Shown in pieces: positions 34,906 to 54,588 of a stretch of 64,000 nucleotides of DNA. Both the position numbers and the translations under genes were made by a program. This DNA is from Epsilonproteobacteria bacterium tcs-49. GTDB lineage: Bacteria; Campylobacterota; Campylobacteria; Campylobacterales; Sulfurovaceae. Under the pieces are notes generated by a model. That model did no database searches and was not told the origin of the DNA. It saw only the letters and a list, made by a program, of their open reading frames with translations. Within the stretch, counting starts at the first letter, position 1. Every line of letters starts with the position of its first letter. Where the stretch lies: NCBI GenBank assembly GCA_002049495.1, contig LLYS01000001.1, positions 1-64,000 on the forward strand, written 5' to 3'.

Positions 34906-34998
34906 TGGCGGACAGGGAGGGATTCGAACCCTCGGTACCCCGTTAGAGGCACGCACCCTTAGCAGGGGTGTGGTTTCAGCCAACTCACCCACCTGTCC
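34906..34998 (-). tRNA. tRNA-Ser (anticodon GCU)
   Basis: The minus strand folds as a class II tRNA of 93 bases including an encoded CCA. The acceptor stem GGACAGG pairs with CCTGTCC, the discriminator is G, the anticodon loop CTGCTAA gives GCT, there is a long variable arm, and the T-arm GGTTCGAATCC is standard. Its -10 is at 35025-35030. GCU reads AGC and AGU serine codons. Confidence 0.95.
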
Positions 34999-35024: not shown

Positions 35025-35030
35025 ATTATA
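35025..35030 (-). promoter_or_regulatory. -10 element for tRNA-Ser
   Basis: TATAAT on the minus strand lies about 27 bases before the mature tRNA 5' end. It sits inside a TGGGTGG-N9-CCACCCA inverted repeat that could act on the upstream small gene's transcript as well. Confidence 0.5.
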
Positions 35031-35053: not shown

Positions 35054-35200
35054 TTAAATAGCGCGTGCCGTGCTATTGGATGTCAAAACTTGCTCCAATA
35101 GTTTCTCAAGCCGCTGCGCCAAATCCTTGTTGGTCTTTTTCGCTTCCGCGATTCTTTCTTTCAGTTGTACTACTACGTCTACTTTGTCCATTAACTTCAT
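35054..35200 (-). CDS. Small 48-residue coiled-coil-like protein behind a sigma-54 promoter
   Basis: A 49-codon ORF (ATG at 35200, TAA at 35054-35056). The product is highly charged and helical: MKLMDKVDVVVQLKERIAEA opens it, then heptad-like KKTNKDLAQRLEKLLEQVLT and the tail SNSTARAI. TGGAGG lies 8 bases before the ATG. A sigma-54 consensus promoter is at 35237-35253, giving a leader of about 26 bases. I do not recognise the protein. In Campylobacterota sigma-54 mostly serves middle flagellar genes, so a flagellar or related envelope role is the first guess; this is inference. RpoN itself is encoded at 53326. Confidence 0.75.
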   Translation of the reverse strand: MKLMDKVDVVVQLKERIAEAKKTNKDLAQRLEKLLEQVLTSNSTARAI

Positions 35201-35236
35201 AATAAACCTCCATAAAAGTATATTCAACGAAGTAAA

Positions 35237-35253
35237 AGCAAGTAGTGTTCCAA
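35237..35253 (-). promoter_or_regulatory. Sigma-54 (RpoN) promoter
   Basis: The minus strand reads TTGGAACACTACTTGCT, with GG and GC exactly 10 bases apart, matching TTGGCAC-N5-TTGCW at all but one position. It is followed at a proper distance by an RBS and the 48-codon ORF. The predicted start is near 35226. Confidence 0.75.
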
Positions 35254-53329: not shown

Positions 53330-54588
53330 GTGAGTTTATAAAACTTTTTACGGTCGCTGGAGCTGCCGATATCAAGCTGTTTGCGGTATTTGGTGATCGT
53401 CCGCCGTCCAAGGCTGAGGTCAAACTCCTTATTGATCATATCCGCCAGCTTTTGATCGCTGAGGGGCTTTTCGCGGTTCTCCTGCTCCACCAACTGTTTG
53501 AGCCGCTCTTTGAGAGCGTTTTGGCTGACCTCCTCATTCTGCCCCGAGGAGAAGAAGGAGCGCAGTTCAAAAACGCCGCGGTCGCATGAAAGGTATTTGT
53601 TGGCGATAGCCCGGGAGATGGTTGAGATGTTGTAGCCAAACTCTTCGGCAAAATCCTGCAGCAGCATGGGGCGCAGATTGCCGCCTAAAAAGAAATCGTA
53701 CTGGTACTCGATGATCATCAAACCGATCTTTTTCAGCGTCGCTTTGCGCATATCCAGCGAATCGACGATATTTTTAGCCTCTTTGAGCTTTTGGCGGATA
53801 TACTCATGTTCCAACTCGGGGTTTTCAATTTCGATAACGGGGTAGTAGTCGCTGTTTAGCTCGATCTGCAACCCCTTATCGTCGATAAAAACGTAAAAAT
53901 CGGGTTTGATCTGTTGTGAAGCCTGCAGATACTCGATCGCCGGCGGGTTTTTAAAGCTGCGGATGATTTTAAGCGCCTCGTCGTAGCGGGGATTCTTTTT
54001 ATACTTGGACATGCTTTCAAGTTCGCGGATCATCGCCGCGCACAGGTCATAAAGCTCCCCGTCGATATCCTGCTCAAACAGTTGGAATAAAAAGCACTCT
54101 TTGACATCCATTGCCCCCACGCCGGCGGGTTCGAGGTGCATGAAACGCTCGCGGATCTTCTCCACCTGTTCCGGGTCGCATTCACACTTTTGCGCGATCT
54201 CTTCGCAGGAGGCGATAAAATACCCCTCATCATCCAGGTTCTCCACGATCGCCTCGGCGATCTCTTGGGAGCGCTGGGTAGGAAACAGCGTAGAGGTGAT
54301 CTGCTCTTTGAGTGCGTCGTACAAAGAGGTCTGGGCGGTAACGACGTTTTCGATAAAGTTGCTCGCTCCCCCCTCTCCGCTGCTTTGTGTACGCCCGGGG
54401 ACGGAGGATTTTTGGATATATTCGCGCTCGAACCCCGACTTGACCTCTACGAGGGGATTATCGCTGGCGTACTCCTTGACCATCTTTTCCAAATCTTCGA
54501 TATCGGCTTTCAAAATCGGCAGCCAGCTTTGCAGGACGTGGGAAAGTTTCTGTTTCTGTACGTTTTGCTGCTGCTGTCGTAACTTCAT
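53326..54588 (-). CDS. rpoN: RNA polymerase sigma-54 factor
   Basis: 420 residues. The Gln-rich N-terminal activator-interacting region (MKLRQQQQNVQKQKLSHVLQ) is followed by an acidic linker, the core-binding domain (about 95-260), a helix-turn-helix (about 325-345, NISTISRAIANKYL) and the RpoN box LGRRTITKYRKQLDI. The RpoN box starts GRRT rather than the common ARRT. It directs transcription from -24/-12 promoters; in this phylum that includes flagellar middle genes. One clear target in this window is the 48-codon gene at 35054. The ATG follows lptB by 20 bases, as in many relatives. Confidence 0.95.
   Translation of the reverse strand: MKLRQQQQNVQKQKLSHVLQSWLPILKADIEDLEKMVKEYASDNPLVEVKSGFEREYIQKSSVPGRTQSSGEGGASNFIENVVTAQTSLYDALKEQITSTLFPTQRSQEIAEAIVENLDDEGYFIASCEEIAQKCECDPEQVEKIRERFMHLEPAGVGAMDVKECFLFQLFEQDIDGELYDLCAAMIRELESMSKYKKNPRYDEALKIIRSFKNPPAIEYLQASQQIKPDFYVFIDDKGLQIELNSDYYPVIEIENPELEHEYIRQKLKEAKNIVDSLDMRKATLKKIGLMIIEYQYDFFLGGNLRPMLLQDFAEEFGYNISTISRAIANKYLSCDRGVFELRSFFSSGQNEEVSQNALKERLKQLVEQENREKPLSDQKLADMINKEFDLSLGRRTITKYRKQLDIGSSSDRKKFYKLT

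Follow-up and report, generated by a model that had tools for sequence, protein, structure and literature searches.

A conserved 48-codon gene behind a sigma-54 promoter, a probable member of the RpoN flagellar regulon in Campylobacterota

The minus strand of the window, by which we mean the whole 64,000-nucleotide stretch of DNA analysed here, carries a short open reading frame directly behind a sigma-54 promoter. Judged by the conservation of its frame, length, start, ribosome site and promoter across five families, this small gene is real. From the sequence comparisons described below we consider it reasonably probable that it is a self-contained coding gene within the flagellar regulon of RpoN (sigma-54), whose product would serve as a cytosolic, helical partner in flagellar assembly or regulation. 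The initial annotation had proposed a TTGGAAC-N5-TTGCT promoter with the right GG/GC spacing, a GGAGG ribosome site and a 48-codon frame, all of which are borne out by direct reading. The minus strand from 35253 to 35237 reads TTGGAACACTACTTGCT, with the GG at 35251/35250 and the GC at 35239/35238, and 36 nt separate this element from the ATG at 35200. Canonical sigma-54 GG/GC spacing places the predicted transcription start at about 35226 and gives a leader of approximately 25 nt, in which GGAGG lies close 5' of the ATG. The frame ends with TAA at 35056-35054 and specifies a product of 48 amino acids. The window also contains rpoN. The upstream neighbour in the window is cmoB, a synteny that is not kept in about 110 relatives. 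The features of the locus are the following:

35237 to 35253, minus strand: sigma-54 promoter TTGGAACACTACTTGCT, -24 GG and -12 GC (direct reading and conserved core in homologous loci)
35201 to 35226, minus strand: short 5' leader; GGAGG ribosome site (direct reading; AGGAG-type site in homologues)
35054 to 35200, minus strand: 48-codon gene, MKLMDKVDVVVQLKERIAEAKKTNKDLAQRLEKLLEQVLTSNSTARAI (homologues; family median dN/dS about 0.14)
35025 to 35030 (approximate), minus strand: TATAAT, probably the tRNA's own, separate promoter element (similar TATAAT/TATACT box 5' of the tRNA in relatives)
34906 to 34998, minus strand: tRNA-Ser(GCT), downstream neighbour kept in four of five families (gap of 43-82 nt conserved)
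53347 to 54558, minus strand: rpoN (sigma-54), expected reader of the promoter (TIGR02395, 366 bits, E 1.4e-109)

A single-protein search of the window's own family (175 genomes; its named relatives are Sulfurovum) returned no homologue. This empty result initially suggested an orphan gene, a reading that was overturned by homologues in other families of the order. With a profile (A1) built from 31 rows, homologues were found in 50 of the 399 genomes of the order sample, 48 of them intact (E 1e-23 to 4e-15) and two frameshifted. The carriers fall into families f4, f14, f16 and f20 in addition to the window's own family f1; the genus g30 within f20 is Sulfurospirillum, and g66 within f16 is presumably Sulfuricurvum. 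Weak matches within the window's own family are mostly HspR helices. The phylum-wide sample contained no further family with a homologue, the sampled genomes of the C. jejuni and H. pylori families had none, the single-protein scan of GTDB contigs and viral contigs gave nothing, and plasmid and phage records gave no match. One profile match to a 105-residue protein on a viral contig was rejected, the helix match being partial and no tRNA lying nearby. The two frameshifted copies (L266 in genome G491 and L267 in genome G410) both belong to the Sulfurospirillum genus and are interrupted near codon 22-23 but keep the promoter; they represent either sequencing errors or recent loss.

All family members are 47-50 amino acids long and share the same start methionine, preceded by an AGGAG-type ribosome site with a single AGGGG variant. 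M1, L13, K14, I17, L31, L34 and L35 are invariant, the C-terminus is mostly a hydrophobic pair, and residues 21-25 tolerate insertions of one and two residues, as expected for a joint between two helices. The median dN/dS of about 0.14 (240 pairs, which are non-independent) shows, as far as sequence comparison goes, that the codons are under purifying selection. The earlier judgement that the gene was very likely real is thus confirmed by the conservation of protein, promoter and ribosome site together with this selection, and a search for orthologues with a conserved frame, which had been proposed as a check, found the frame intact in 48 of the 399 genomes.

Within the 2.2 Mb genome the string TTGGAAC-N5-TTGCT, with N4 or N5 allowed, occurs four times, and a backwards control pattern with the same spacings matches twice. 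A single site could therefore be due to chance; it is the conservation across species that settles the promoter as real. The other three exact sites lie 6-67 nt 5' of the starts of a flagellin gene, a FlgEFG-type rod/hook gene and an LPP20/FlgP-like gene. Sites with one mismatch precede fliW, a chemoreceptor gene and a flgI-like gene, the last named from sequence reading. The chemoreceptor carries a CZB domain, and its site, TTGGAATATAAGTTGCT, lies 79 nt upstream of the gene (C13:175246-175262). We also observed a sigma-54-like site, TTGGCACACTGTTTGCT, just upstream of a gene for a DUF3972 protein (C2:59722-59738), possibly a further uncharacterised member of the sigma-54 regulon, while hspR (L049:526-900, on C15) is located one gene upstream of the flgI-like gene and its one-mismatch site (L049:1501-1517).

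Across the family, GGAAY-N5-TTGCT is found 30-64 nt 5' of the ATG in 45 of the 48 homologous loci, so that the conservation of the promoter, likewise proposed as a check, could be established; two of the exceptions read GGCAT-N5-TTGCT and one is degenerate. These 45 are the only occurrences in the 353,214 bases of homologous loci, both strands included. In f4, the leaders are longer in four loci (L178, L187, L188, L190) and share a ACAGGTTG motif near the predicted transcription start. The surroundings of the gene vary: upstream lie pyrF, an AsmA-like gene, tsf or, in the window, cmoB, and in 45 of the 48 loci tRNA-Ser(GCT) follows just downstream, starting 43-82 nt after the stop codon in 43 and cut by the contig end or by Ns in two more. 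In the three loci of f14 the tRNA is missing and the frame, its promoter kept, is flanked by tsf and an ABC ATPase gene; in the two loci where the contig reaches far enough, the ATPase gene is followed by fliR, confirmed as Bac_export_1. As judged by this comparison of loci, the promoter travels with the small gene when the neighbours change. In some relatives (L225, L201) integrase-like genes adjoin tRNA-Ser(GCT) on its downstream side, which gives the 3' side of the locus the look of a site where islands insert.

Several other explanations of the locus were weighed against a protein-coding gene with its own promoter. The proximity of tRNA-Ser(GCT) to the frame in four families, and the fact that a strong terminator between them is not evident in the window, would fit a sigma-54 promoter serving flagellum-linked transcription of the tRNA, with the frame as a leader peptide or by-product. 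However, a search of the 500 nt 5' of the same tRNA in gene-negative genomes from many families found no sigma-54 site other than those of the two frameshifted copies and a weak match at a distance of 424 nt; f14 retains promoter and frame without the tRNA; and in the Sulfurospirillum loci a strong hairpin separates the frame from the tRNA, which has a TATAAT-like box of its own. These observations assign the promoter to the frame and, together with protein-like codon evolution, make the tRNA explanation very improbable. Only slightly less improbable is a regulatory or dual-function RNA similar to the RpoN-dependent sRNA FlmE/CJnc230 of Campylobacter jejuni. The flagellar cascade of the phylum does include such RNAs (PMC11187230) and the predicted transcript is short, but the excess of synonymous changes is large and the homologues keep frame, length, start, ribosome site and amino-acid pattern, which is not the behaviour of a non-coding RNA, although a dual function would be compatible with it, and Rfam returned only the tRNA and one sub-threshold match over it on the opposite strand. 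That a chance frame should stand behind a chance promoter would be conceivable for one 17-base site in 2.2 Mb taken alone, but is refuted by a protein, promoter and ribosome site conserved in 48 genomes.

The connection to flagella is less direct. RpoN can also control non-flagellar genes, and the product might be a small sigma-54-dependent protein of an envelope, nitrogen or stress programme that is merely common in motile lineages. In most genomes the gene is not beside flagellar genes (its usual neighbours being pyrF, the AsmA-like gene and tRNA-Ser), and many flagellated genomes lack it: outside the window's own family, 31 of 34 gene-negative genomes have fliF, so the small gene is not needed for flagella in general. 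Against this stands its distribution, in which the gene occurs only with flagella: fliF is present in 35 of the 36 carriers tested (the exception being a 60% complete genome) and absent from all 10 gene-negative relatives sampled in the window's own family, although the association is phylogenetically clustered and so reflects few independent events. As six of these ten relatives have rpoN, the gene goes together with flagella and not with sigma-54 as such. Sulfurovum and Nitratifractor are reported to have lost all flagellar genes; in the rest of the phylum, RpoN and FlgRS are reported to be conserved as regulators of flagella (PMC9321776). The genome of the window is an exception in its family and carries fliF (C16:11168-12802) along with flagellin, rod/hook and fliW genes. 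Further points against a non-flagellar programme are the fliR neighbourhood in f14, the flagellar genes served by the sister sigma-54 sites and the protein itself, in which neither a signal peptide nor a membrane segment is apparent; we therefore regard such a programme as unlikely, if still a serious contender. The suggestion of a flagellar role in the initial annotation gains indirect support from the fliF distribution, the genome's other sigma-54 sites and the gene order tsf, small frame, ABC ATPase gene, fliR in f14, while its alternative of an envelope factor is left unsupported by a 48-residue sequence without an apparent signal peptide or transmembrane stretch.

AlphaFold2, run on the single sequence, predicts one helix spanning residues 3-47 with a mean pLDDT of 87; this single-helix model leaves room for a hairpin. 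The protein fits none of the family models in Pfam, NCBIfam or PHROGs, PHROGs giving only weak helix matches, and there is no convincing relative among solved structures. FlgM, FliS, FliT, FlgN and FliJ are not among the Pfam/NCBIfam matches listed for 31 members at E up to 0.5; a match to FliG_M (E 0.007) was seen in one of the 31 members only and was rejected. The helical hairpin of the RpoC (beta') clamp, at about residues 190-232 of E. coli beta', resembles the protein over 40 of 47 columns (P ~5e-6), and in several genomes (L015, L033, L283) rpoC at about codons 190-250 is the best non-family match of the family profile. This resemblance and a second one to HspR were checked against about 680 control proteins and against reversed sequences. 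RpoC ranks first after the true homologues, yet an unrelated helical protein scores alike, and both of these were found by selection; the HspR resemblance covers 25 columns, half of the protein, and the HspR of the window's own genome reaches only 3 bits. Kinship is claimed in neither case, and the resemblances probably reflect convergent helix composition. It seems a long shot that the protein mimics the clamp hairpin of RNA polymerase and acts on polymerase or a sigma factor as a sigma-54-induced feedback regulator of the flagellar sigma cascade.

As a member of the RpoN flagellar regulon, the gene would be turned on, like other middle flagellar genes, by RpoN upon activation through the FlgSR checkpoint, and its expression would be timed to rod and hook assembly. 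The product may be cytosolic and built of amphipathic helix, in the form of a single long helix or of two short helices that meet near residues 21-25 in a joint tolerant of change. By way of the conserved hydrophobic face and the hydrophobic pair at its C-terminus it could bind a flagellar assembly or regulatory protein, and would then act as a small chaperone, adaptor or regulator. FlgM, FliT, FliS, FlgN and FliJ are similarly small, helical, cytosolic and tied to flagellar assembly, but the present protein has only about 47 residues and, as mentioned, none of them is among the profile matches listed. In Campylobacter and Helicobacter, flgE, flaB and flgP are among the flagellar genes that depend on RpoN (middle or class II genes). 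The small gene has the same type of promoter and shares its exact pattern with the flagellin, rod/hook and LPP20/FlgP-like genes of the window's genome; in contrast to those known genes, it encodes an uncharacterised protein of 48 amino acids without a family match and lies mostly away from flagellar genes. It also resembles the FlmE/CJnc230 and FlmR/CJnc170 sRNAs of C. jejuni (PMC11187230) in the short transcript that it is predicted to give within a flagellar sigma cascade, but these are non-coding, whereas the small gene evolves as a protein and is situated elsewhere in the genome.

A gene of 48 codons falls below many annotation cut-offs and could be missed by standard gene finders. The list of sigma-54-dependent flagellar parts in Campylobacterota derives largely from C. 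jejuni and H. pylori. If the proposed assignment is right, the gene would add a conserved family without a Pfam or NCBIfam match to the sigma-54 flagellar programme of the phylum, and because genera that carry it are in culture (Sulfurospirillum and, in all probability, Sulfuricurvum), one could test directly what it contributes to flagellar assembly or to the sigma cascade.
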